From Cytidiella melzeri (taxonomy: Eukaryota; Basidiomycota; Agaricomycetes; Polyporales; Irpicaceae): a stretch of 64,000 nucleotides of DNA. The stretch is taken from contig JABYQR010000136.1 in NCBI GenBank assembly GCA_022592445.1, positions 1 through 64,000 of the forward strand, written 5' to 3'. This document shows positions 1,029 to 55,085 of the stretch, piece after piece (the stretch's first letter is position 1; every line of letters starts with the position of its first letter). The notes below the pieces were generated by a model. It was not told the DNA's origin, searched no databases, and saw only the letters and a list, made by a program, of their open reading frames with translations. Made by a program: the position numbers and the translations under genes.

Positions 1029-1283
1029 ATACCTCATTTTATTTTGTCTTTTTCCAACTCCGCTTTCTAACACAGGTATCGCAAACGGCTGGTTCCGAGA
1101 CTAAGTCCGATGATCAGGCGCGATTTGCTCCCGCATTTATCCTCTGATTCCATCACCTGCTGGCCTTGAGCCGTGTCTCCCCTGAAACGTGAGTGGTGTG
1201 AGACTGGCGGTGTAGTGGCAGGAAAGTACGACACACTTCAAGTCCAAATCCGTCTTCTTGCTGTACACCCACGACGACCACCA

Positions 1284-24491: not shown

Positions 24492-24836
24492 TAGCTCGAA
24501 CTTTCACCAACCCTACCCTGTGCATATCGCCCCGACAACAGCCAAACTCGACACTCTCACCTCTCTGCACACTCCTATCACATCCTCCGGGCACCGCGTG
24601 TCGGTTGCTCACCCCTAACAAATCCAATCTCCGCAGATCACCACTCAACTCCTTTTCTTGATATTCATTTTCACTTTCAGTACCCTTTCGTCGGTACCGG
24701 CCTTACGCCGCTGCTAACGAGAGAAGGGATTGCGCGTCTTTACGACCAATCCATTCGGGACAACCGTTCGGACCCCGAATTAGCCACACCTTATAGTTTA
24801 CTTTGACTCAAATAGTGTAGTACGTACTTTCCGGAC

Positions 24837-26006
24837 ATGGTGCAGGAACCGGAGGTACCAGACTTGGTGCCAAACATGATGGACATGGGACTTGGACTCG
24901 GAACAGAGGAGGAGGGGGGTGGCGCAGGGGCTCTCAGGCAGTGCGTCTCTGATCTGGAGGAACTAATCAATGATCTTCAAACTCAACTCTCACACGATAC
25001 TCCTGTGAAGGAGCTTACCAGAGCACTTTGTTCTGTGCGTGATCGAGAGATCTCTCAGTCAGTTGACATTGCCAAGCCCAAAGCCTTTGATGGGAAGAAA
25101 GAGCATGCCGAAGTGTTCCTTCATCACCTTGCGCTGTGCTGGGCAGCGAATCCCCTAAAATTCAATAGTAGCGCCAATAGTCACCTTAATCGCATCACCT
25201 ACGCACTATTGTTCATGAGTGAAGGGAAAGCCGCAAAATGGGCGCGGGTTCATGTTAAACAAGTGACCACATCGACCACTTGGGATGAGTTTGAAGGGGC
25301 GTTTTGGAAGAAGTTTGCAGACGCTCGTCCAAAGGCTACTGCACAGGTCAAAATTCAAACTCTTCGTCAGACTGGAATGTTTGATGAGTTCCTCAACAAG
25401 TTCGAACTGTATGAAGATGAAAGCGCTTTTGGAGAAGAGGCGCTCACCTTGTTCTTCAAAGATGGCCTCGATACATCCCTTCGCCAGGCAGTCTTTGACT
25501 TGCGTCCAATGCCAAGGACTCTCCAAGAATGGAAGGACGGGGCACGAGAGATAGACCTCCAACAACAGGAGCGCGACGCCGAGGAAGCGGCGCGCCGATT
25601 CAGCGCTAAACCAAGCTGTTTCTTCTTTCAAACTCCTGCCGCTCCGCCACGCAGTACCACGACCACCTCTCAATCTCACCAGACCAACACCACGTGTCCC
25701 CTTCCCTTTCCTACCTCCACAACTCCTGCCCCATGCAAGGACGCTACGGGCCTTGTCTTTGGTGGCCAAGGACAGCCAATGGACATTGATGTCGCTCGTC
25801 GCCGTGGTCTCTGCTTCAAATGTCACAAGCCGGGTCACCTCGGACGCAATTGTCCAAATCAAGGTCCAGTAAACGTTTGCGCACTCGCGGCAGAGCTCAC
25901 AATGGAGGAGTTGCAGGGCCTGATGAAGGAGGCGGAAGAGCAGATGACAGAGGAGGCACAGATACTGTTGGATAAGGCTTCAAAGGACACTGAAGAGGAT
26001 TTTTGA
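24837..26006 (+). CDS. gag: Gypsy gag
   Basis: An uninterrupted frame of 389 aa. A retrotransposon capsid-like region lies at about residues 80-240 (FLHHLALCWAANP, WARVHVKQVTT, FWKKFADARPKATAQ). A zinc knuckle of the CCHC form follows near residue 325 (CFKCHKPGHLGRNC). This is the only intact gene of the element; gag forms the particle that packages element RNA. The preceding LTR and leader supply the transcript start. Confidence 0.88.
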   Translation: MVQEPEVPDLVPNMMDMGLGLGTEEEGGGAGALRQCVSDLEELINDLQTQLSHDTPVKELTRALCSVRDREISQSVDIAKPKAFDGKKEHAEVFLHHLALCWAANPLKFNSSANSHLNRITYALLFMSEGKAAKWARVHVKQVTTSTTWDEFEGAFWKKFADARPKATAQVKIQTLRQTGMFDEFLNKFELYEDESAFGEEALTLFFKDGLDTSLRQAVFDLRPMPRTLQEWKDGAREIDLQQQERDAEEAARRFSAKPSCFFFQTPAAPPRSTTTTSQSHQTNTTCPLPFPTSTTPAPCKDATGLVFGGQGQPMDIDVARRRGLCFKCHKPGHLGRNCPNQGPVNVCALAAELTMEELQGLMKEAEEQMTEEAQILLDKASKDTEEDF

Positions 26007-29000
26007 ATAGCTCGGGAGTTCGCGCGCCCTCACCGAGTTGCAAAGTTGCAGATACATGTACTACTAGCAAGGGACTTACAAATACGAAGGAACCCTTACC
26101 AACTGCTTCTACAGTCGCGCCCAATACCTCCCCCATTAATCCTTTGTACTCTCCGCCATTGTCACCCTCTCGTCCTAGTGCCGGTACACTTGAGTGGATC
26201 GTGCAACGCATCCACAATCGAGATGATCACACTCTTGCTCATCTACAACTGTGGGTGAACTCTCGTAGGTGGCGTGAAGCCATGATGTCGACCTTGCATG
26301 AACTACGAGCACTTGCTCCTGATGATATGTCTATCGCGTTGAAGGAGCTCAGTGGACCACAACGGTTTGTAAAGGGTTGACGAGGTCATCAGTTAGACGT
26401 ACCAGTCACATTATTTATTATCAAAACTCAGCAAACGTTATTGCTTGTTGCTCTTCTCGATAGTGGCTGTACCAGGTCTTGTATCGACAAGACCTTTGTA
26501 CGCACTCACAATTTGCCCACAAAGAAACTTGTACGCCCTATTCCGGTCTATAATGCCAATGGTTCCTTCAACGGTAGTGGCCCAATACAAGAGTATGTTG
26601 AATGTTGCCTCACCATACGTGGACATTGCGAACACATCCTCCTCGCGGTCACCAACCTTGGTCGAAGTCAAATGTTTTTAGGCCATGAATGGCTTTGACT
26701 GCACAACCCGTCTGTAGACTGGCAGAACGGCACCCTCAAACTCGATTGCTGCCCTGCAGAATGTAACTACTATGTGCGGGTACTGGAACCTGATGAGGTT
26801 GATGACAAAAACGATACATTCACTGATGGATTGTATGAGATGGCTGAGGGTGATCGGCTTTTCCTGATGGATTGGAGGACGTATCTTCATCTTAACCGAG
26901 TAGATATCCGAGCAAAGGGTACTCCAGCTCAACGTCTTGCAGAGCAACAAGCTAACACCAAGGTCCACAAATCTTTTGAAGACATCGTCTCGCGTCACTA
27001 TCACGATTATCGGGATGTTTTTGACAAGGCATCGTTTGACAAGTTACCTCAACGTCGACCTTGGGACCACGCCATTGAACTTATACCCAGGTCCCGTCCG
27101 ATTGACTGCAAGGTTTATCCACTTACACCAGATGAACAAACACAACTCAACCTTTTTCTTGAAGAGAACCTTTGTACAGGACGCATACGGCCATCCAAGT
27201 CCCCAATGGCTTCACCCTTCTTCTTTGTAAAGAGCGTCCAGTGCAGGACTATTGAAAGCTCAACAAGATGACGGTAAAGAATCGATACCCTTTACCGTTG
27301 ACACAAGATCTCATTGGCAAACTCCGAGGAGCGAAGTACTTCACCAAGCTGGACATTCGTTGGGGATATAACAATGTTTGTCTGCAAGACGGAGATGAGT
27401 GGAAGGCGGCATTTCGTACAAATCGAGGACTTTTTGAACCTCTTGTTATGTTTTTTGGTCTGACAAATCCCCCTGCTACATTTCAAACCATGATGAACGA
27501 TCTCTTTTGTGACTTGATCAACCGAAACATCGTAGTAATTTATTTGGATGATATCATGATATACACGAAAACACTTGCCGAACATCGCAAAGTAGTACGT
27601 GAAGTCCTGCAGATATTACAAGAAAACAAGCTGTATTTGAAAGAGAGAAATGCAAATTTGAAGTATTAGAAACAGAGTACTTAGGGATTATTGTTTCAGA
27701 GGGTAGTGTATGCATGGACCCTACCAAGGTAGTGGGCATCATGGACTGGCCAGTACCCCTGTGCAAACGAGATGTTCAGGAATTTTTGGGATTTACAAAC
27801 TTTTATCATTGGTTTATCAAGGACTATGGAGATACTGCCCGACCACTCACCTCTTTGACTGGAAATATTCCCTTTGTGTGGACAGATCAACAACAGCAAG
27901 CCTTCGACGATCTCAAGGCAAAGATCACCCATGCACCTGTTCTTGGCATGCCCACTGACAACAATCCATTTTGATTGGAATGTGACGCATCTAACTTCGC
28001 GATTGGTGCTGTTCTCTCTCAGCACCAAAACGGCCAATGGAGACCAATTGCTTTCCTGTCGAAAGCCATGTCAGAGACACAGCGGAACTATGAGATCTAC
28101 GACAAGGAGATGTTAGCCATTATGGTAGCATTGGAGCAGTATAGACATTACCTTATGGGAGCAAGGCAGGTGTTCGAGATCTGGACAGACCATAAAAATC
28201 TGGAATACTTCTGGAAGCCACAGAAACTAAACCGTTGACAAGCTCGTTGGGTCACCAAATTGTCCAACTATCATTACTCCTTGCATCACAAACCTGGCCG
28301 CTTGAATGGGAAACCTGATCATCTCTCGAGACGAGCAGATCACAACTGGGGGGAGAACAACAACAAGAGCATCACCGTCTTGAAGCCAGAGCATTTTCGC
28401 GCCAACGAGTTTGAACTGCATCTCAAAGAGGACGCGATTATGATTAGGGTACGAGCAAATAGGCGAAATCAGGATCGTGCGGTAGAGCGTGCATTGGCAA
28501 ATAAGGAGAAAGGATGGACAGATGACGGAAAGGGTCTAGTCACTTGGAAGGGCCGCGTTTACGTTCCGCGCAACCGCGCATTGCAAGAGAAAATTATCCG
28601 CTTGAATCACGACACAGTGTCAGCAGGGCACCCGGGGCGTTACAAAACGCAGGAACTCATTACTCGAGACTACTGGTGGCCAGGAATACAGCGCAACGTC
28701 AGGAAATATGTTGATGGCTGTGAGACATGTCAACGTACCAAAATTCATCACGGACGACCAGCGGCTCCCTTACACCCGCACAAAGTTCCGTCTTGTAATT
28801 GGGAGGTCATTTCGGTCAACATGGTTGGACCGCTTCCTCTTTCGCACGTACATGACGCCATTCTGAATGTTATCGACACACGTAGTAAGGAGGCAATTTC
28901 CATTGCAACAAACATAAAACTTACCGCAGAAGGTTGGGCAAGACTCTTCTTGAAACACGTCTATAGCCTGAAAGGTCTGCTGCGTAAGGTCATCAGCGAT

Positions 29001-30193
29001 CGTGGACCACAGTTCGTCTCCAAGTTCCTGGATTTGTTGTACTCTCTCCTCGGCATTCACGGAAATCCATCCACAGCCTATCACCCCCAGACAGACAATC
29101 AGACCGAGCGCGTGAATCAAGAACTCAAGCAGTACTTACGAGTTTTTGTTAATCACCACCAGGACAACTGCGCAGAGTGGTTGCCGTTAGCGCAGTTCTT
29201 GTACAATGATCATATACATCAGTCCACAGGATACTCACCTTTTTTTCCTGAATCACGGCTATCACCCATGGACGGGAATAGCACCACGACAAGAAGTTCA
29301 CAACAAGTCTGCAAAGGAGTTTGTCGAGAGGATGTCCAAGGTTCAGGAGGAGGCTGATGCGGCATTGAGGTTTGCACAGGAAAGGATGAAGCACTTTTAC
29401 AATTGTAAACGTGCAGACGCTAGAAAGTATAAAAAGGGTGATCTTGTATGGCTGGAGGGGACAAACATTTGAACAGACAGACCTACCAAGAAGCTCGAGG
29501 ATAAGCGGTATGGACCCTTCAAAATTGTCGAGAAAGTTGGTGCGTCCGCATACAAGCTTCACATCCCTCGCAAATGGAGAGGAATCCATCCTGTTGTAAA
29601 TGAGTCTATCTTCTGTCGTAAATGAGTCTATCTTGACACCGTACCACACTCCCGATTACCCTTCCCAATGTCAAACACACCCTCCTGTCCCGGATTTAGC
29701 ACAATCGGACGAACTGTGGGAGGTTGAAAGTGTGTTAGATTCCAAGTTGAAGAGGGATAAACTGTGGTATTTGGTTGAGTATAAGGACCGTCCTCGTTCA
29801 GAACAACAGTGGGTTCCCCGTTTCGAACTTCTTTGCGACGCACCAAATGCTATCACTTCGTTCCACCAGAAACACCCTGCTGCTCCACAACCGTTGTTCA
29901 TTCGACTGCCGCCTGCGCATGCTCGGTCTTTCCAGTACCGTGCACCCTTCCGCCCTATCAAAAACTTGACACAACCGGTCAATATACCCCCCCAGTTGTA
30001 TAATTGGGAAAACGGTACTTACGAACGGGTCGAGGCACATCAGTTGCGTGGACGCGACTCTTGGGGAGGGGTCAATGTCATGGTTCAGGACCACAAGACT
30101 ATCATTGCGCCCTCTTTTCCCTTTATAGACATTCACCGACGGTTGTCCATATTAGCTACAAGACTATCTACGATACTTCCGCCGTGTCCATAG
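26003..30193 (+). pseudogene. pol: Gypsy pol, broken by stops and frameshifts
   Basis: Recognisable in pieces: aspartic protease (LLDSGCTRSCID, 26450s), reverse transcriptase ([21 protein letters not shown] at about 27540), RNase H (LECDASNFAIGAVLSQ), integrase zinc region and core (DYWWPG, CETCQRTK, ISDRGPQFVSKF, QTERVNQEL), and a C-terminal chromodomain (DELWEVESVLDSKLK, LWYLVEYKDR). In-frame TGA codons are at 26696, 27253, 27972, 28236 and 29470. Other lesions are a small deletion at about 27230, a one-base loss near 27640, a T insertion in a T7 run at 29240-29246, and a 22-bp duplication at 29592-29635. The first integrase catalytic Asp appears replaced by Asn at 28818-28820. Confidence 0.9.
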
Positions 30194-31626: not shown

Positions 31627-34600
31627 ATGTCGAGCACCACACCTCCCACAGGTGGTTCGGCATCGTCTGGCCCTGCTGGGTCCACTCCTGCCTCTGCAGG
31701 TCCCTCTGCTGCTGGTTCGTCGTTCGTCAAGAACACTTCCAGCAACTCCTCGTTCATCAAACTCGACTCGCTGCCTAAGCTGACTGGTGCCAACAACTGG
31801 AAGGAATGGAACATGCTGTTCATCCAGTTCCTCAAGACGCAAGCCGCGTCTGGCATGGTCGATCCTTCTCTGGTCAAGCCCGCGTCCACCGACACGGACT
31901 ACAACGACTGGTGCAAGGCCGACGCCAACGTCACTCTGGTTCTCCTCGCGACCGTCGACAGCTCTCTCCACCATCTCTTCGACCTCGAGACCAACTCTGC
32001 CGCCGAGATCTACGCCAAGCTTAAGGCCAACTACTCCGCCTCGACCACTCTCTCTGCGTTCCTCAAGTTCAAGCAGTACTTCCTTCACACGATCGACGGC
32101 TCACGCCCTCTCGTTGAACAGCTTGAAGAACGTGGTCGTCTCTGGCAAGAAGTTGACGCCTCCGGCATCCTTGGCGACAAGGAACTGCTCAAGATCTTCG
32201 GTCTCCTCTCGGTACTCCCTGACTCCTTCGCCAACATCGTCGAGCCCATCCTCGCTGTCACCGCGCCAAAGGACTTGAAATACGACGACATCCGATTGCG
32301 CCTCATCGACGAGGCTAAGCGAAAGGAATCGCCTTCAGTCTCTGCGGTCAAGTTCAACAAGTCTTCGGCTTCGTCCTCGTCGGGCAAGTCAAAGAAGCAG
32401 TGCGGGTTTTGCAAGTACAAGGGTCATACAGAGGACGAGTGTCGTAAGAAGAAGGCTGCCATTGAGGAGGCAAGGAAAGGGGGAAAAGGAGGAAAGGACA
32501 AGGGGAAGAAGGAATCTTCTGGGTCACCATCATCGTCTAACGGTTCTGCTGCTGTACATGTAGTCTCTGCTGAGGACTCCGCGTCCGAAGCCGCCAACGT
32601 CGCAAATATAGATGTTATGTTTTATGCTTCGGGTGAAACACCCTGGATGCTCGACTCAGGCTGTACAAGACACATTACCAACAACCTCAACGACTTCCAC
32701 GACTACAAGCCGTTCGCTACGCCGTCGTTTGCGACATTGGCTGATGCTTCGAAGACTTCAATGTCTACGCTTGGGTCTGGGAGCGTACGTGGAACTGTAC
32801 ACGTTAATGGAAAGCAGCTCACAGCGCAGTTTGACAACGTCTTATACTGCCCGGGCATCGCTTACCGACTCATTTCGATTTCCTGTCTTGACTCCAAAGA
32901 ATTCTCTACCGTTTTCACTGGCGGTAAAGCACGGATACACAAGAATGATACCACCTACGGCATAGGTACTCTCAGGGCGGTCAATACTGGTTGGGACTTC
33001 GTGTCTCTTCTTCGTCGGTCGCCTCCTCCACGCACACGCACCCGTCACCCATCGACCTTGTACACCAACGCTATGGTCACCTGAACTGGGAAGCACTACA
33101 GAAGCTACGCTCTGACGACTCCCCGGTGACAGGTCTGACTATCGACGAGAAGACTCCTCGCTCTGAACACGCATGCGAAGGTTGTCAACTCGGCAAGGCC
33201 ACACGACGCACATTCCATTCATCCTCGACACCTCGCGCGGACAAACCTTTCGATCTCATCCACACTGACTTGGCTGGACCTATGCAGAACTCTTCTGTAA
33301 ATGGCGGACACCTCTACATGCTCACGTACATCGACGACTGCTCTGACAACGTCTGGATTTATTTCCTGAAACACAAAGACGAACAGGAGCAGAAGTTTGA
33401 GGAGTTCCGTCAGCTGGTCAAAACTCAGTTCGAGAGGGATATCAAGATTCTTCGCTCTGACAGGGGCGGTGAATACCAGTCGAAGCGCTTCGTGCAACGA
33501 TTGAAGGATCTTGGCATTGTCCATCAGCGCACCACCCCGGATACACCACAACAAAACGGCAAGGCTGAGCGTTTCAACCGCACCATAATGGAGGCTGCGC
33601 TCTCTATGCTTTACGCCGCCGGGATGTCCAAAGGATTCTGGGAAGAAGCCGTGAAAACCGCTGTGCATGTGCGCAACCGAGCACCCAAACGGTCTCTGGA
33701 TTGGAGGACACCATTCGAGATTATAACTGGCTCCAAACCGGATGTTTCATACTTCCGTGTCTTTGGTTGCCTCGCCTATCGCCACATTCACAAGGATCAT
33801 CGCAGGAAGCTCGATGCTCACGCTCAGCCTCTTGTGCATGTTGGGTATGAAGCGGGTTCTAAAGGTTACTGCTTATGGGACAAACATACTCATAGGATCG
33901 TCTCGAGTACTGACGTTGTATTCGACGAACTGATCTTTCCTAACCGTCCTTCACCTCCTACTCAACTAACTTCGAGCATTCCAACCTCTCCGCCGACCAC
34001 GTACGATCTTGAACTCTCACTCCCTTTAACGCCCTCTTCACAGCCGGCTACTACCACGTCACAAGTGCCCTCAACTCAACAACCACCTCCTCTTGACGCA
34101 ACATCCACGTCGGCTCCTACGCCTTCACGGATACCGCGTCCCTCTACTCCTATTCCTAGTTCGTCCACATCTGCTGAACCAGAGCCTAGCTCTTCATCCA
34201 CGCCACTCTCGCCTTCCAAACGGAAAGGCCCTCCTGTCGTACCTTCTCCCAAACTCGAGCCAAATCCCAATCGTCTTCCGGCCGCTTCTCCACATGACTA
34301 CCTTCCATTCTCCAACCCGGCTCATGCTGGTGTTACACGTCGTTCACAACGCACTGTTGTACCTCGTGATGCGAAGCGTCTCCAGTCTATGTGGGCTGCT
34401 ACTGAACAAGAGATTGAGGAGACGACTCGGGCTCGCGGTAACAAGGTCCCCTACAAAGGCAAAGGCAAAGCGAAAGCTGACGCCGGCGCTGTCCTCTCTG
34501 ACGAGCAGGTCGTCATGCTGGCAGCGGCAGTTACGCCTCAGGGGGAGCCTCGTACCTATCGGCAGGCTATGGGTTCACCGGATCGAGATGACTGGCGTGC

Positions 34601-36121
34601 AGCTATGGAGGCCGAAATCAAAGGTCTCCAGGACACTGGAACATGGAAACTAGTCGATTTGCCCCCTGGTCGCAAGGCGATCAAGAGCAAATGGGTTTAC
34701 AAACTCAAACTCGACAAGGACGGAAATGTTGATCGTTATAAGGCACGTCTGGTAGCCAAGGGTTTTGAGCAAGTTCAAGGCATCGATTTCACAGACACCT
34801 TTGCTCCCGTCGCCCGTCTGGAGTCTTGGCGATACCTCGTCGCTTTGGCTGCTATTCTGGACTGGGAAATTCACCAGATTGACTTCCAACAAGCCTATCT
34901 GAACGGATCTTTGGACGAGGAGGTTTACATGGAGCAACCTGAAGGGTTTGTACTGGATGAAGGCAAAGTATGCCGCCTTCATAAGGCAATCTATGGCCTA
35001 AAGCAGCAGGACGCCAATGGTTCCTCACGCTCAAGGCATGCCTCGAAGAACTCGGCTTCGTCTGTTATGACACAGGTGATGTCGCCATTTTCACTTGTCG
35101 ACGAGGGGGAGCCCTCCAAATTATTGTTTGCTACGTCGACGATCTCACTATTATGGGAAACAGTCTCACCCTCATCAAGGAGACCAAGGACGCTCTTCGT
35201 CGCCATTTCGATCTCAAAGACTTAGGCGAGCTCAAGCACTATCTCGGTATCCGTATCACTCGGGATAGGGGGAGTCGTCTCATCTACCTCGACCAAGAGG
35301 TCTATATAAATTCCGTTCTCAAACGCTTCCAGCATGAGGACTCCAATCCTGCTTCCACACCGCTTCCAACCGGTATCCAGTTGGTACACAACGAAAATCC
35401 CAAAGAACAGTGCGACCCAGCACTTATCCACACCTACCGCAGCGTACTTGGCTCACTCATGTACGCCTCTCTTGGAACTCGACCTGACATCTCGTACGCC
35501 GTTGCGAAGCTCTGTCAATACCAGTCCAACCCCTCGCAGTTGCATCTCCGCGCTGCATATCATGTCCTTCGCTACCTTCGTGGTACATCCAGTCTCCGAC
35601 TTTGTCTAGGCCATAATGACGAAGGCGTTGACGACCTTGTCGGTTACACCGACGCCGACTTTGCCGGCGACTTAGATGACTCGCTCTCCACATCTGGCTG
35701 GGTTTATTTCCTTGGCTATGGCGCTGTCTGCTGGTCCTCGCGCAAACAACGTTCTGTGGCGAAGTCTACCTTCGACTCAGAATACTTTGCGGCTCACGAA
35801 GCTTGCGAGCAACTCAAGTGGTTGAAGATTCTCACTGATCAAATTGAGCAACCTCTTCCTCTACCTGTCGTCCTTCATTGCGACAACAAGAGTGCTGTAG
35901 ACGCTTCCAAGTCCACTCACGTGAAGCATCGCTCCAAACATACTCGCGTCACTGCGCACGCTGTTCACGAATGCGTCACCGAAGGCCTTGTCGAATTGGT
36001 TCGAATCCCTGGAGTTGACAACCCCGCTGACATCTTCACCAAGTCTTTACCGGCTGAAGCTCACGTTCGTCACTCTGAGTCTTTAGGGCTCGTCCAGTTT
36101 CACCTCGCTGAGGGGGAGTAA
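31627..36121 (+). pseudogene. Copia gag-pol polyprotein with two frameshifts
   Basis: Frame 1 (31627-about 32990) has gag with a CCHC knuckle (CGFCKYKGHTEDEC) and the protease motif WMLDSGCTRHIT. Frame 2 (about 32991-35008) has the integrase (HACEGCQLGK; HTDLAGPM; SDRGGEYQSKRF; PQQNGKAERFN) and the start of reverse transcriptase (YKARLVAKGF, QIDFQQAYLNG, IYGLKQ). Frame 3 (about 35009-36121) has the rest of RT (YVDDLTIMG) and RNase H (YTDADFAGD, HCDNKSAVD). Both joins look like a single missing base: one near 32985-33000, one near 35006-35009 in AAGCAGCAGGA. The final TAA coincides with the first three bases of the right LTR. Since the LTRs are near identical, either the breaks are very recent or they are sequencing errors. 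Confidence 0.88.
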
Positions 36122-38565: not shown

Positions 38566-41339
38566 TGGATTCCACAGCTTTCCCTTGGATAGAGCACATT
38601 GAATGCCTTCTCTCTCTTCATCAAACTTTTCACTTGTGTCACTACTAGGGGTTTGCGTCTCTTACACTACCTCTCTTCTCTGTGCATAGCCTTGCATCAT
38701 TGGGCCTTCACTTCTTTGGCTGACATCCAGCAGGGAGGTAGTTTACACTTGCCTGAGATGACCATCATGGCTTTGCACATTGTGTGCAGCCTATGGCCTA
38801 GGGACTATAGACTACAGCCCTTGTCTATACATACAGCTGAAAGAATATTCTCATGTGTGTAAAGCCTTACCAATTATAGATGTGTTCACCAAGGGGTTTA
38901 CTGGCTGTAGGAATGGTGACCTTTGATGCATACTTTCTGATCCAGTTTTGTTTTAATCCAGATTTATCACCTGCAAAGTTCTGCAATCTGTGCAAGATTT
39001 CAGATATATATAGTACATTGACTCTGAAACCACAAACACATGATTCAACTTGTGAGCTCTCATAAGAGCAGCATTCCATTGTTAATCTAACTTACAAAAT
39101 CTTGCCCCCTTGAGCAGCATTCATGCTGAATTTTGTTACCTTTGAAATCACTATAAATCTTTGGCCCTTGTAAAACCCTGATGACACTCATAATTCTGTT
39201 GGCTCACCAATTCTGCAGAAATATGATCACTAACCTGTATTCCTGACAAGGTTTAAATGCATCATTTTTGACACAGCTAAATACTGCAGGCAGAACATGA
39301 TTTTCACCAGTATTTGTTGGCTACTTAATATTGAATCTTGTTGTGCATTAGTTTATGCTTTTTCCAGCAGTTTTCCATGGCAGAATATCTGTTGTTTATT
39401 GTAGAGCAGGGCATGCATTAACAGAATGTTTCCAAGTACTGGAGGCTCAATACTAATTGGTGGGCTGAATATACATTTTTATTGGGTGTTATTTGTGGTA
39501 GTAATTCATTGGATTCATGGATTACCAAGGGGTAATGTTGCTAGATATTTTGAAACTTCTACGCAATTCTCCCAGGTATGCTATGCATACTGTCAATGAC
39601 CCAGAAGTGAACTGGGGGCAAGAAATGAACTATTGTGCAAATCAACCGTATATATTTAGATGTTGTGTACAAAATTTGGTACAGAAACATGGGTTCTGCA
39701 CAGATAAAAAAACCAAATACCTGAAATTGTGCATGTAGTTCATTCATGAACTGCAATTGATGGGCTTGTTGTGGTGGCAATAGAGTATATTTCTGCACAA
39801 AAATCATGATATGCATTGATGTACGTATCTAGTATCAGAGAAAAACACTTGTTTGTAATTCTGAGCAATGTGGCAAGAGTAGCAGAAAGTAAACTGTTGA
39901 CAGTGTGGCCAGGCATGACAATGCCTTGTTGATTGAAACTCCAACCAGCATTGATTTACCAGCAAGTAAATAAGCACTTGCTTGTGACATGCTGTGACAG
40001 TTCATAGATTCTGGCATGGAAAACAGTACCTTCGTGTGGAGCTTTGCAAGCACCTTTCCCCTTTGCAAATATTTGCAGAACTGTATGAGCTATGGCCAAG
40101 ATACCTGCTTACACTACAGCAAAAACTCCAAGCAGAAATAACCACAGAGAAATGGGGGAAACCAGAAGTGGTCATTGACAGTATGGCTCCCAAGATGTTT
40201 CTTCAGGACATGTTACTGTTGTAGTTTTCTAAGTTCATCGGGCATGAATGTAACGTTCTTTCTTACTTTCCTTTTACGGACTCACGTGCAAGCACTATAC
40301 AGTTGATAGATTACATAATCGTTTGCTTAACGCGCTCGCACATTGCATGGCTGTTCTCCAGTTTCCTCACTATACATTTGAGGCTAACTGAGTTCTCTCT
40401 GCACGCTTTGCGTACTTTAGATCGAGCCACTCGTAACCCTACAAAAGTTACAGTTTTTATTAGCAATCATTTGCTGGAATTCACCATAATAGAGCATCAC
40501 AGTCATAACTTTAGAGCAGAGCCTGCCCACGTCAGAACATTACATAAGTCTGATCATCCATGAAAGTCATCACCAGTATTAGCAAGTCAATTGCTCAAGT
40601 TTATTATTATTATCATGATGCTAATGAAGAATGTGATTAGCAGAGATAATGTTACCCACTGCAAGATGGTATAATAGCATGACCAAATTGCAATCCGTCA
40701 CTTGGCCGGTCTACTATGTTGCACTATGCAATATACAGTTCTATGTCAAACAACATACACCACAAATACATCTTTTTACAAGTACAGATTTGTTTGTGAA
40801 TATCATTGGCCAGGTACAGGACTATATATACAGGCATAATAGCAATATGTGAGACTACTGTACTGGCACAACCTAAGGTTTGGCTCACGGTCACAAGGCC
40901 TCCAAACATCGTCATTTTGAACATTGGTCACAGGTCACGGACCCTCGTGAACTTTCGGCTGGGTGTGTGACCTCAGGCGCTTATAACATTACCCCATATG
41001 TTTTTGTGCACACACAGGCGCCTATTGATACTTTCAGATGTTCGTTGGTCACAGGTCACTGCGTGTCCTGAACTTCCAAATCTTCTAGTCTCGGTCCCAG
41101 ACCCTCTGCATGCTGCCACGTGCGCTGCCTTCCTGTTTTGGGAGCGGAGAACAAAAAAAAAACCAGGAAGCCAGCTGAGAGTCTGGTGTTCCTGGCCTAT
41201 CCGGGTGTAGGTGAATCCCACGTGGTCGTGATTATCTGCAACCGTGACTGCAAAACACGGCACAATCAATTTACAAGTTTTGTACACTACACATCCCAAT
41301 AAACTTTGCTTTCCCCCGTCTCGTCTCGTTCGCCCTCAA

Positions 41340-41815
41340 ATGCCTCGCGCACGCGTTCCACGCCAGTACTTTGAAGGTGCCGACCTCGAGGACGAAGACG
41401 ACTCGGACTCTGGTGACAAGTCTGAGCCCAGCCCTGCCAGAGGACCGCTTGGTAGGACAACACAGTGTGCGAGTCGCCTTGAGACCACCTCGCATTGACG
41501 GATTGCCGCAAAGTTGAGATGCACCATTGACTTCATGGCACTACAGGGTCTGGATGTTGCCACGCTTCTTTATTATCTCACCTGGAACCTGGACAACGAG
41601 GAAGACGAGAAACTTGATGCAGATGACCGAGACAACCTATTCACGCATACATCAAACCTCAGCGTAATTAAGTACGCACGCACCGCCCTCACTCACTACG
41701 ACAAACTGCCCCAGATCCTAGATAATTTGCAGTGCCCCCCATGCAAACACGGTAGAGGAATTCGATCGCAGGGTGCTTACAGGGCCATGGACGCCTGGTC
41801 ACTCGACAATGTGAA
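41340..41815 (+). pseudogene. N-terminal fragment of a DUF6589-type protein
   Basis: Starts MPRARVPRQYFEG followed by an acidic/serine run. After a frame disturbance near 41500 it continues with CTIDFMALQGLDVATLLYYL, KYARTALTHYDKLPQILDNL, HGRGIRSQGAYRAMDAWS. This resembles the region preceding the DUF6589 domain in large agaricomycete proteins. It stops where the opposing helicase fragment begins. Identification rests on remembered family pattern, so moderate to low confidence; the truncation is clear. Confidence 0.5.
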
Positions 41816-42632
41816 GATGCTGCGTGACACAATGTGCCTCGTCCACAATAATTCCACCCACATTCTTCATCCAACTCGAGCTCCTCATGAGCTTTGAGAA
41901 CCGAGGATGCTTCAAGATCATTTCCGGAGAGGTGATGATGACACGGAAGCGATCAGCTTTGAGTTGCTGGAAACTAAGGTGAGTCTTTGTACTGAAATAT
42001 GAATTGCGTGAGATATCACCTGGTGCAGCTCATGCGAATAGTCCTTGCCATTGACAGCCACAGCGGTCAGCCCCATATCACAGAACCGCGCAGCCTATCA
42101 GAGTGAGTGAGTGCATGGCGCATATAGTCAGCTTTGAGTACATTGACAATTCTCATCAGAAACTCACCTGGTCACGTTCGAGAGCATTGAGAGGTGAGAC
42201 AATGATCACCTTTGAACCGGACTCCTCAACGAGCAGTGGCATGACAAAGGGGAGTGTTTTCCCAAAGCCTGTCCCCGCCACAATCGCGACATCCAACTCG
42301 AGATGGAAGGCTTCCGCGACATCTTCTTGATACCAATACGGTACATGTCCATGACATCTAGCTCCAATCTTGTGTCTGACTCTACTCCGCCATGTCTCGG
42401 AACAATACTGGTGATCTTTCTTTGCCTGTTCTCGGGCCTCTTCGAGTAGCTTGTACGACCGAGCATGGTGGACCGTCTTTGGAGCCAGGGGCTGTAGTTC
42501 ATCCAGAATAGACTCATATGTATTTGCTGCTGAAGGCTGTGATGGAAGGGACGAGGTCGTGCAAGACGCAGTTGTCAAAGATTGGCTACCAGACATGGCT
42601 GCAGTAGCTTCGGGGCGCGGGCGAGGTGCCAT
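41799..42632 (-). pseudogene. RecQ-like DEAD/DEAH helicase fragment
   Basis: Exons 42168-42632, 42020-42094 and 41799-41966, in phase. Walker A/motif I reads AGTGFGKT, preceded by YWYQEDVAEAFHLELD. Motif Ia region is VIIVSPLNALERDQ, and ITSPEM is followed by motif II IIVDEAHC. Translation then runs into the opposing gene and stops, so the second RecA-like domain and everything after motif II are missing. Complete relatives are large RecQ-like helicases that are repeated in basidiomycete genomes. The fragment cannot be an active helicase. Confidence 0.8.
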
Positions 42633-43258
42633 CAGGGCGTCGAGAGGGTCCCATCACTGCTTGTTGACTCGTGTAATTGTTACTGGCATATTGTTGAGCA
42701 ATAAGACATGGAGGGACAATGTGATAGCGAGACAGAGACGAAGTAAATACAGGATCGCGCGTTGTGCTAATAACATAAGCGCCCGAAGTGGACGCGTTGT
42801 GGACGCGACACGATTGCCACGTGGGAGTTCACCTACACCCGGATAGGCCAAAAACACCAGACGTTCGGGCGCCCCCCTCTCTTTTTTTTCGTTCTCCGAT
42901 CCCTAAACAGGAAGGTGCCCGAACGTCTGGGACCGAGACTAAAATCTTCGAACATCTGAGGGCCACGGTCACAAGCCGCGAACCTTAGGTCGTGCCAGTA
43001 CAGTACTTTTATGTGCATCATTTCGGTCAACTTTGGCACGGGCTAGCATGAGGGTCTGATGTGCGGTAATCGTGATTGCAAGCACCCCGGAACCTTAGTG
43101 CCGATCGCGCTAAATCCTTATTATGAACATGTTGGTGACTATAAAACAAAGTGAACCATCTATTTTCTCCACCTTTGCTCCCTTTGCGTCGCTTCGTCGT
43201 TCGGGTTTGCTGTCGGTCATACAGATGCTCGCTGGTTTCTGCTTCGCATTGACAAGGT

Positions 43259-47331: not shown

Positions 47332-49101
47332 TCAGGGAGAAACACCGGCCTCGTCCATAATTGCAAAGATGTGGTGAGGGAGAACACGATGGCCACGGTA
47401 CTCTTTTGCGGCCCACGCAGCTTGCTTGCCTGACAAGCCGCGTCGATATCCGTCCATGAAACGGCTGGCACGAATATAAAACCTGTTGAGTCGAGGGATG
47501 TCGAAGCACATCAGTAGTAAACTTTGTAGCACAAGAATTTCCGTACGTACTTGCGAATGTCGGTCACCGATATACTGTCCAGCGCGGCGACAACGTTCCT
47601 CTCAAGGTCAGCTTCGAGTGAGGAGTCAGGGAACATCCGATACTCTCGCTTCGCCGCGCCCCAGCATTGCTCAATCGGGTTGAGTTTGCAGTGGAATTTC
47701 GGTAAGTAGAGTACCTTGAAGCCTCGCTCTCTACAATGCTTCTCCACTATGCTCTCGACATTCTTGAAATCCGGCTGATTGTAGAGGATCCTGCGGCAGC
47801 AGCACGAAAGCCTGGGCAGCGGGCACCTGAACTTCGGGCACTCCGCACGAAGACCTTCCACATCGATACCACGTTCTCCAAGAATGGTCGCCATCCCTTT
47901 GAAAACACCTGCGCGAGGATGTCCTGGTGGATAATACAAAGACTGGGGGCGACCGTCTGTAAGCTGTCCGTTGGCCATCCGAACTCGAACCTTTCTCTGA
48001 CCGGTAGGTGTGCTTTGCTTGATATCAACGCCAAACATCGGTTGGCCATCCTTTGTTGGATTCAAAGACATCCGACGAGCTGACAGAGCATCATCGGCGC
48101 GCTTGAGGTGAGTCGTTGCATTGTCGAGAATGAAGATGTGCCTCATTCCGGGATAGTGTCGCTGGAGGATGTCCATGGCAGCAGTGAGTTGAGCGACGAT
48201 GTCATTGTTAGTGAAGTAGCCATCGCGGGCCAGCCCGGCTTTGAACAAAACCCGTGCAGATTCCATGCCATCTGGTGAACGCAGCCAGCCAAAATCGGCC
48301 GAGACGAAGTCAGCAACCATCAATGAAGCCCCTTCACCTTTGGCACGAGGGACCGCCTTTTCGCCCCTATTCACCCATCGGATGATACGGCGATCATGGG
48401 CATAAAACGTTGACTCGTCATGGAACCAGTAGACGACTCGCGAATTGCGTGGCAGGGGAGTATTGCCAGGGATAGGAACTACTGTGCCATCCGGATTGAA
48501 GTGAAGAACGTCGGGATCAAGATCAGCGAGGGCAGGGAGGAAAACGTTGTTTCAGTACGCCACCACATCTTCTCGCTCATGTCCATCAACAAACTGTCCG
48601 TGGGGGCTCTTCATCCAGCGATAGTCAAGACGACGCATCCAGGTTTGCGCCGTTGACAGACAAACAGCTCTCGTGAGTCCATGATTTGCTTGAACGTCTG
48701 CTCTGGCAGTGAAGTTGACAATGTCTTGCGCACGGACAAATTTTCCGACACTTTGCAGGTGGTCCAGAACCTCAATTGCTAGGTCGGGTTTTTGATCGAG
48801 GAGGCACGCGTTCCAATAGCCGTTGACCAATCCGCTGTACGGGAGTGCCTGACGATTCTTCATGAACGCTCTCGTCCACTCGCGGAGTCGTCTTGCCATG
48901 TAAGTGCTTGCCTCTGTGTCGTGCATAGTGTTTACTGATGCAGAGATCCAGCTCATTGTCCCATGGACATACTTGTACAAGAACATCCGCATCTGTCCCA
49001 GCCGCCTCCGCAATCCCTCGTCACCTCGAAAAGTCAAATGCCCGCGTCCAGATTTCCGACGGGGCTGCAGGATGTTCTTGACATCCATCCATGCAGCTCG
49101 A
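47332..49101 (-). pseudogene. DDE transposase, C-terminal part
   Basis: Exons 47551-49101 and 47332-47481. The DDE catalytic core is visible: first Asp in VYWFHDESTFYAHDRR, second in IFILDNATTHLKR, and Glu in LPKFHCKLNPIEQCW. The C-terminal block is RRGLSGKQAAWAAKEYRGHR. The N-terminal side has helix-rich DNA-binding-like sequence (GRGHLTFRGDEGLRRRLGQMR; STAQTWMRRLDYRW). One in-frame TGA at 48552-48554 falls where TGG (Trp) would fit (VAY-stop-NNVFLPAL). The gene has no start here: at 49102 it runs into a splice acceptor (TTTTGCAG) and then foreign Plavaka sequence. Related fungal proteins are annotated as DDE superfamily endonucleases. Confidence 0.82.
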
Positions 49102-52095: not shown

Positions 52096-55085
52096 ATGCT
52101 GTCAGCCATGCCGCTGTCACCTTACTTTTTGTGCTCTTTCTGCGCTCGATCCTTTCCGACAAGAGCATCTGTTGGTCAGCACGTCGCAAACAACAAGTCC
52201 TGTCGAGAACGCCGGGATACAGAGCTTGCGGCACTCAGCAGAGAGCACTCATATCACGCTTTCGGTGCAAGTCCTGGGAACTCAGCAACGCAACGTCAGT
52301 ATACTCCTACCACAGATGTACAATGCGAACTCCTACTCACCGATATCAATGAACCGCATACGGCACGAGCGCAAGACTTGGATGCTGATCCGGATGCGCA
52401 ACCTCCTGCTCCTATCAGCCATGTGTCTACAGATGAGACTGTACTTCATGACAGCGCACCTCGTTATGCACAGCCGTCTCCTCCTCATCTTGCCGCTGGC
52501 GCTTCGTTTGGAACAGGCCGCACTGGATTCGAGAAGATCCGCGACAAACAGATCTGGCGAGGAGAGAAGGTTTGGGGCTCATTTGATAGCGAAGAGGATT
52601 GGGAGTTGGCGAAATGGCTAGTGACGAATGTCGGTCATGCGCAAGCCGAGTCTTTCCTAAAGCTAGGAATTGTGAGTGCAGTGTGACGTCTCTATGAGCT
52701 TCACTTACTCTAGTACGCCAGATTCAGCGCGCCGGCCCTGCATATACAAACAAATCCAAACTCTACCAAGCCGTTGATGCGCTACCGAGTGGTCCAGGAT
52801 GGAAATGTCAAGAGCTGGTTCAGACGGGAGATCTAGTGGATGCGGAAGGGCGACCACTTACCGAGAGTCTCGAACTCTGGTTTCGAGATCCAATCGACTG
52901 CGTTCGTGAGCTGCTTGGCAATCCTATGTTCAAAAACCTCCTTGCGTATGCACCTGAGCGAGTCTACCGGGACTCTCAAGGAAGAGTGCGCCATATAGAT
53001 GAGACCTGGACTGCAAATTGGTGGTGGGAAGTGCAGGTACGCTAACTGCCATTGATCCACGAGAGAGATATCTGCTCATGATTGATTGCGTTAGCAAAGG
53101 ATGCACGGCGGTCACCGTCCATGCATGGCACTATCCTCATAGGCTACATACCGGTCGGGGAATTTGACTGCTTTAGCGAGCAGAAGCGTTCGCTTGCTCG
53201 TTACCAGGCCTTTCATGCTGCGATGAAAGTCATTCTTGACTCTATGGTCCACGCTGGCAAGGAGGGGATCTTTGCAACTTGTGCCGATCAGCAGGTCCGA
53301 CGTGTACATCCGATTCTGGCTGCGTATGTCGCAGACTATCCGGAGCAGTGTTTGGTCGTGGGTTGCATGGAAAATTGTTGTCCTATAGGCCAGATAGCAC
53401 CACAAAATCGGGGATCTCATCAGTTCTGCGCTGCGCGAGACCAGAAAGAGATCCTTGACTTACTGAGCTCTCATCGAAACGGCACTCTCACTTCGGAGCT
53501 TCGACAACGATTTGACAACTTGGGACTGCGCGCGATTCACGACCCGTTCTGGCGCGATCTTCCGTATGCCGACGTTTTCCGTGCCTTCACTCCAGACCTG
53601 CTGCACCAGCTGCACAAAGGTGTCTTCAAAGACCACCTCGTCAAGTGGTGTACTGAGCTGATCAGTGAAATCGAGTTAGACAAGCGGTACATGTCGCTAC
53701 CCACCTTGCATGGTCTTCGCCACTTCAAGAGTGGTATTTCTGGGGTGTCGCAGTGGACGGGACATGAGCACAAAGAGATGGAAAAGATGTTTCTCGCGCT
53801 TATTGCTGGCGGAGTTGATGATGAAGTTGTTCTTGCGGTTCGCGCGCTTCTGGACTTTGTTTATTTCTCATCGTTTCAGTCGCACACCACCACCACTACA
53901 CTTGCTGCACTCAAGGCCTCGCTCGACAACTTTCACTCGTATAAGGACATCTTTATCCATCTTGGTGCTCGAAACCCCCCGCATTTCAATATTCCAAAAT
54001 ACCATATGCTCGAACATTACGTTCAGCTCATTCTCGACTTCGGCAGCGCAGATGGTTTCAACACGGAGTGGTCTGAGCGACTGCACATCGACTATGCCAA
54101 AGACGCGTACCGTGCCTCCAACAAACACGACTACACCGTTCAAATGACACGATGGCTATCGCGTCAGGAAGCTGTGGACCGCTTTACCGTATATCTTGAT
54201 TGGTGTAAACGGGGCGAGTATTCTCCTCTATCTGCGACGTATATGACTACAATTTCTGAGTTGCCCCTTGATGACGACGAGCCGAACAGCACGGAATCAC
54301 ACCACAAACAAGCTACGACACAGCCATACAAGGTCGCAGCTGCATCCCCTCGTCATCTGCAAGGCATTTCAGTTGCCGACATCTCAAGCCGCCTGGGAGT
54401 CTCGCAGTTCCTGCCCGCACTTCGCGTGTACCTACAGTCACGCAATTGTCTTGTCAACATCTACGAGCGTGACGGTTTCGACCTGTACAAGGAGCTTGTT
54501 GTACACCTTCCGCCAGTTTCGGAAGTTAGCAGGACGAAGCTGAAAAATGTGGTGCGCGCATCACCTGCCATGGCAGCATCAGGACGGCGACAAGCAGAGC
54601 CAGCGCAGTGCGACTTTGCATTAGTTCGGACGGGTGAGGCAAATCCACACACAGACGGCACCGCTTTAGCAGGTAAGCTAGTATTTATCCCTCTCATTGT
54701 GTCAGGTGCTGACGTGCGCTCAGGCTTGCGGATTGCTCACGTTCGAGCGATCTTCAACGTGCCGAAGCACTTCAATGTTGGTAATGCTCATCCGCTGGTA
54801 TACCTAGAGTGGTTCACCCCGTTCCATACACCTGACACTGTTACTGGTCTTCATATCATCACGCGCTCGACACGAAGACACTTACCTTACGGAGAGATTG
54901 TAGAGGCTGACCGCATCGTCCGAAACTGCTACCTACAACCTAAGTGCGGCAGGGTGCAGGATGTGGGATGGACGAGTGAAGCGGTGAAGGATAAATGTCG
55001 AGTATTTTATGTCAATTCATACATAGACTACCATATGTTCTTGCTACTCCGTCTTGGTGATGTGAATGCCATAAATTCGCAATGA
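52096..55085 (+). CDS. Plavaka transposase, probably internally deleted
   Basis: Exons 52096-52671 and 52722-about 53037, then 53082 onward to the TGA at 55083-55085. The N-terminus has a C2H2-like zinc finger (CSFCARSFPTRASVGQHVANNKSC). Conserved Plavaka blocks follow: HIDETWTANWWWE, GTILIGYIPVGEF, CADQQVRRVHPILAAYVADYPEQC, FTPDLLHQLHKGVFKDHLVKW, HFNIPKYHMLEHYV, ERLHIDYAKDAYRASNKHDY. Between the tryptophan block and the GTILIGY block, related proteins carry a further few dozen residues, including a catalytic-type Asp; here only about 45 nt of unmatched sequence is present (53038-53081). The gene therefore looks inactivated although the rest is open over 660 codons. Confidence 0.75.

Follow-up and report, generated by a model that had tools for sequence, protein, structure and literature searches.

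An internally deleted DUF6589/RecQ-helicase transposon nested in a Tc1-type element of Cytidiella melzeri, most likely of the AcademH lineage

We analyzed a 64,000-nucleotide stretch of contig JABYQR010000136.1 (hereafter, the window) from Cytidiella melzeri, a member of the family Irpicaceae in the order Polyporales, which carries a transposon with fragments of a DUF6589 gene and a RecQ-like helicase gene. Positions 40856-43005 contain two mobile elements, one nested in the other. The outer one is an interrupted Tc1-type miniature inverted-repeat transposable element (MITE) at 40858-43003 (unstranded), whose terminal inverted repeats (TIRs) begin with CTGTACTGGCAC. It is flanked by TA at 40856-40857 and 43004-43005, and its 25-bp arms span 40856-40880 and 42981-43005. 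The inner element, an internally deleted DUF6589/RecQ-helicase transposon of 1,856 bp, occupies 41086-42941 on the + strand and ends in perfect 17-bp TIRs, with TAGTCTCGGTCCCAGAC on the left (41086-41102, +) and its exact inverted copy on the right (42925-42941, -). An 8-bp target site duplication (TSD), AAATCTTC, borders it at 41078-41085 and 42942-42949 (both unstranded). A subterminal inverted repeat of 88 nt was also observed, with its left arm at 41128-41215 (+) being 82% complementary to the right arm at 42828-42915 (-).

Two gene fragments are located between these ends. On the + strand, 41340-41821 holds the 5′ fragment of a DUF6589 (putative transposase) gene, which encodes the N-terminal 161 residues with one in-frame stop and shows 91% identity to residues 1-161 of P0056, an annotated 828-aa hypothetical protein. 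The Pfam DUF6589 domain of P0056 spans residues 363-757, and the fragment stops before it; the window copy thus holds only the N-terminal part that precedes the domain, and the name DUF6589 therefore rests on the full-length copies described below. On the - strand, 41820-42689 holds the 5′ fragment of the RecQ-like helicase gene, comprising exon 1 and exon 2 up to the DEAH box. Exon 1 runs from an ATG near 42689, a start taken from the translation, and contains the Walker A motif GTGFGKT. Exon 1 of the helicase in the full-length copy L010 matches 42767-42159 at 95% identity and exon 2 matches 42077-41820 at 86%, and each exon fragment of the window copy contains one in-frame stop. Alignment to the full-length copies L009 and L010 further indicated that the left match extends to 41821 and the right one begins at 41820 (element positions up to 736 and from 735, respectively), overlapping by CT. 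The deletion junction is thus at 41820-41821 (unstranded), with a 2-bp CT microhomology and ~4.67 kb missing compared to L009 and L010. The original prediction had described two unrelated genes, each 5′-complete and 3′-truncated, that face each other at a single junction, and the P0056 and L010 matches indeed meet at 41820/41821. As both genes are incomplete, the window copy is presumably non-autonomous.

Six further copies of the outer MITE were found in the same genome (L021-L026; 295-296 bp), all of which were flanked by TA. In 6/6, the sequence is unbroken across the insertion point of the window copy, and AAATCTTC is present once in these empty sites, with substitutions in some. The window MITE is short of 14 bp present in the six copies. 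The insertion target of the inner element is a Tc1-type MITE. The locus had previously been read as a single element with TIRs of 200-380 bp; the six uninterrupted MITE copies show instead that it consists of two nested elements, and the TIRs appeared so long because the MITE arms, the inner TIRs, and the 88-nt subterminal repeat were combined. Similarly, the TA proposed as the target duplication of the transposon belongs to the outer MITE, and the inner element makes a duplication of 8-9 bp. The outer element has the TA TSD and short body in common with Tc1/mariner-type MITEs, which are not the origin of the two gene fragments. A partial DDE_3 domain (DDE superfamily endonuclease), which we take to be Tc1-type, was observed at 47514-48551 (-) of the window and is possibly akin to the mover of the outer MITE.

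The genome searched comprised 49.7 Mb in 731 contigs. Four full-length copies bounded by the inner-element ends were fetched (L009-L012, on C17, C725, C146, and C722), with lengths of 6,523-6,692 bp, and the window element showed 94-96% identity to the two ends of the 6,523-bp copies L009 and L010. The reading of the locus as an internally deleted TIR transposon was supported. In all four contigs, Pfam DUF6589 matches were on the + strand and helicase matches on the - strand. An exon-by-exon Pfam scan of two copies, L010 and L011, gave single-exon DUF6589 matches with E-values of 8e-54 and 9e-64, respectively, and frame breaks in the DUF6589 genes suggest introns. P0056 matched L012 piece by piece at 89-100% identity. 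The helicase contains Pfam DEAD/Helicase_C domains; the Walker A motif was present in exon 1 of all four copies, and exon 2 showed a DEAHC motif in L009 and L010, with none found in L011 or L012. The closest solved structures in the PDB to exon 2 of L010 were RECQ5, BLM, and WRN. Stops inside the matched helicase stretches of L009, L011, and L012 indicated that the frames are disabled in some copies.

L009 and L010 were 97.5% identical and L011 and L012 were 98.6% identical. Between these two pairs, the identity was ~87% for the left (transposase) half and ~74% for the helicase half, pointing to different histories of the two halves; this comparison of sequences suggests an exchange of halves between the two subfamilies. 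Four other deletion derivatives (L013-L016) showed four other junctions, so that all five derivatives differ, which would fit repeated abortive gap repair better than the spread of one deleted copy.

Genome-wide searches with DUF6589 and the helicase score the best candidates only, so the locus counts are lower bounds. At least 120 DUF6589 matches fell into at least 82 loci, and at least 89 helicase matches into at least 85 loci. A convergent helicase was located within 8 kb at 57 of the 82 DUF6589 loci, compared to ~2.2 expected by chance; the arrangement was different at one locus, and no helicase was found within 8 kb at 24. Conversely, 28 of the 85 helicase loci had no DUF6589 within 8 kb; among them are the window copy and two more of the deletion derivatives, and the count may also take in host RecQ genes. 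TIR matches were on the expected side and strand at at least 21 of the 57 pairs (~0.7 expected): on the helicase side at 19 or more, on the DUF6589 side at 8 or more, and on both at 6 or more, when 100 of the 127 TIR places described below were compared. The convergent DUF6589/helicase arrangement foreseen for full-length copies was thus observed both in L009-L012 and across the genome. As the window holds fragments only, the two genes could have been joined by chance, in a composite formed from two truncated elements or through rearrangement, rather than descending from one transposon. However, four 6.5-6.7 kb copies at other loci have these two ends, and the pair was found again at 57/82 DUF6589 loci, both of which contradict a chance meeting of fragments and render this explanation extremely improbable. 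Subtelomeric RecQ genes, given as a known fungal family in literature excerpts, were set aside as the source of the helicase because the helicases occur together with DUF6589 within elements bounded by TIRs.

The ends of the transposon were then analyzed across the genome. The 17-bp TIR occurred at 127 places with at most one mismatch and at none for the reversed control, indicating that its occurrence is not due to chance. It was found in all nine copies examined, being exact at 17 of 18 ends with one mismatch at the right end of L010. Exact TSDs were present in eight of these copies (9 bp in four, 8 bp in four), and no TSD was found at L009. A sister motif, TAGTCTCGGAACCAGCCGT, was detected at 74 places with at most two mismatches, compared to 0 for the reversed control. 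Among four distant DUF6589/helicase elements, three (L029-L031) had 9-bp TSDs and TAGTCTCG termini; a scan of the remaining one (L032, the C61 pair) detected no TIR or TSD. Twelve further TIR-bounded elements showed an exact 9-bp TSD in eight cases, an exact 8-bp TSD in one, a 9-bp TSD with one mismatch in two, and an 8-bp TSD with one mismatch in one. Three of the twelve (C1, C127, C545) contained the DUF6589/helicase pair, all with exact 9-bp TSDs. Overall, 21 TSDs were exact, of which 15 were 9 bp, 6 were 8 bp, and none was 10 bp, and the TSD sequences of the family varied.

Several additional arrangements of this family were observed. The family is nested in itself at L031 (2111-9702 and 2135-8890), where one DUF6589/helicase element, which has a 9-bp TSD, lies within a sister element close to the terminus of the latter, whose TSD is 8 bp. 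MITEs of the family (156-344 bp) that share its TIRs and have TSDs of 8-9 bp were present on C7, C65, C106, C158, C22, C118, and C216 (L033-L036, L040-L042); the TSD was exact in six of the seven and had one mismatch in L042. Several other DUF6589/helicase pairs carry the TAGTCTCGGAACCAGCCGT motif on their helicase side, and an exact copy was found at window positions 1085-1103 (-), from which an element would run to the left, where the contig starts at the first base of the window. On C367 (8373-27914), family-related left and right ends are separated by ~19.5 kb, and both a helicase match and a DUF6589 match lie between them; either a single copy has grown through later insertions, or these are the remnants of two copies.

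Next, we considered whether DUF6589 encodes the transposase, as had been proposed. For two diverged DUF6589 clades, the predicted structures best matched the DDE transposases Hermes, P element, and RAG1. Hermes was the closest solved fold for both models, with 5-9% sequence identity in the alignments, and the fold was also common to ISCth4 and Transib. The columns of the D/D/E triad, D312, D482, and E682, were conserved across DUF6589 proteins, as was a GxxH motif (H517 in 55/55 members, G514 in 53/55). The predicted DDE-like fold together with the conserved triad indicates that DUF6589 is very probably the transposase of the DUF6589/RecQ-helicase element. When DUF6589 was compared with the PDB by sequence profile, only chance-level matches were obtained (best E 0.19), and Foldseek alone gave no match at E ≤ 0.001. 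No Academ or Kolobok structure was named in two VIA structure-match lists, an absence that carries no evidential weight. Pfam (E ≤ 0.001) identified DUF6589 in 55/55 members and otherwise only a marginal Arm_3 match in one; hAT, Mutator-like element (MULE), KDZ, and Plavaka domains were found in none of the 55 at this threshold. Only PF20231 was carried by the best 120 of 168 protein relatives. The named relatives among the matches listed, from Cytidiella and other genera, are agaricomycetes, and no animal or XPG-fused relative linking DUF6589 to Academ was among the matches listed. In Pfam, DUF6589 is of unknown function, and the C. melzeri proteins named among the matches carry the annotation "hypothetical". 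The literature collection searched contained no paper with a word beginning DUF6589, none joining the Academ superfamily, nuclease, and XPG, and none on the C. melzeri genome.

As Hermes is a hAT transposase, we also asked whether the element is a diverged relative of hAT or MULE elements that acquired a helicase. The TIR begins with TAG, some TSDs are 8 bp, and 9-bp TSDs suit MULEs. However, hAT elements generate 8-bp TSDs, whereas 9 bp was commoner here (15/21 exact, with 8 bp in 6/21), and neither a hAT nor a MULE Pfam domain was found in the 55 members at E ≤ 0.001. Moreover, the fold is shared with P element, RAG1, ISCth4, and Transib, and hAT elements carry no helicase to our knowledge. 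A hAT or MULE affiliation is thus very unlikely.

Based on the anatomy of the copies, we propose the following mechanism. The intact 6.5-6.7 kb element encodes, in two convergent genes, a very probable DDE transposase (recognised in Pfam as DUF6589 only) and a RecQ-family helicase. The DUF6589 transposase may bind TIRs beginning with TAGTCTCG and excise the element, and insertion would proceed via an 8-9-bp staggered cut through DDE catalysis by the same protein. The helicase may aid in opening strands or ends, in replication, or in gap repair. Internal deletions would result when the gap left by excision is repaired incompletely and closed by end-joining, and the deleted copies, which retain both termini, could be mobilised in trans. 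By tying DUF6589 to TIRs, 8-9-bp TSDs, a predicted DDE-type fold, and a RecQ partner, many hypothetical mushroom genes become recognisable as transposon genes. Furthermore, this one genome contains full-length copies that are nearly identical, along with deletion derivatives and empty sites, and thereby offers a system for testing what a helicase does in a cut-and-paste transposon.

Other mobile elements are also present in the window. Ty3-like gag and integrase reading frames were found at 24816-29354 (+), a Copia-type integrase and reverse transcriptase over two frames at 32949-36118 (+), and a Plavaka transposase domain (PF18759) at 53082-55082 (+).

The combination of a DDE transposase with a RecQ helicase was compared with known superfamilies. 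The TSD of Kolobok elements is TTAA, in contrast to the varied 8-9-bp TSDs observed here. The comparison with published systems draws on excerpts of the cited papers, in which KolobokH is described as fungal Kolobok with a captured RecQ helicase (PMC9587614); it resembles the present element in this pairing, but its helicase is downstream of the transposase domain, whereas here it is a separate convergent gene. This precedent for RecQ capture by another DDE superfamily would be in line with the DUF6589/RecQ elements being a separate, unnamed DDE superfamily, abundant in C. melzeri, with DUF6589 relatives in many mushroom-forming fungi and a Hermes/P/RAG1-like transposase, that captured its helicase independently of Academ and Kolobok. 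DUF6589 as the sole recurrent Pfam match in 55/55 members also agrees with such a separate origin, as does GxxH, which resembles the C/DxxH motif of the hAT/P/MuDR/Kolobok/Dada group (PMC9587614). The TSDs of 8-9 bp likewise differ from the 9-10 bp stated for AcademH, compared to 3-4 bp for AcademX (PMC10045372). Nevertheless, the helicase class, the fungal host, and the TSD length closely fit the excerpted descriptions of AcademH and fungal Academ. We therefore consider a separate superfamily unlikely.

Kojima reportedly described AcademH in 2020 as helicase-encoding Academ DNA transposons. Academ elements have terminal inverted repeats, and the 17-bp TIR was present in 9/9 copies here. A helicase was likewise found beside the putative transposase (DEAD/Helicase_C domains, RecQ5 matches, and 57/82 convergent pairs), and the predicted models and conserved D/D/E columns point to a DDE/D transposase. 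Academ is placed among the DDD/E superfamilies (PMC9587614), and putative non-autonomous Academ elements are mentioned in a mushroom (PMC8290104). In the excerpted account of fungal Academ, most copies have recognisable domains, with DEAD/DEAH helicase (PF00270) and recQ_fam as examples, as observed here, although DUF6589 is unmentioned in that description (PMC6416283). The original prediction knew of no named superfamily with this gene pair; helicase-encoding AcademH (PMC10045372) and recQ_fam in fungal Academ (PMC6416283) had, however, already been published. Helicase-encoding Academ transposons are thus already known, and the useful addition is the assignment of DUF6589. We infer, with a probability of about 0.8, that the inner element is non-autonomous and derives, by internal deletion, from a cut-and-paste DNA transposon that most likely belongs to the AcademH lineage. 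AcademH is described as low-copy in Basidiomycota, Ascomycota, and Mucoromycota (PMC10799480), whereas many copies were observed here. With its helicase gene inside a transposon, its basidiomycete host, and TSDs near 9 bp, the helicase-carrying DUF6589 element nevertheless appears to fit AcademH best, a likeness drawn from published descriptions.
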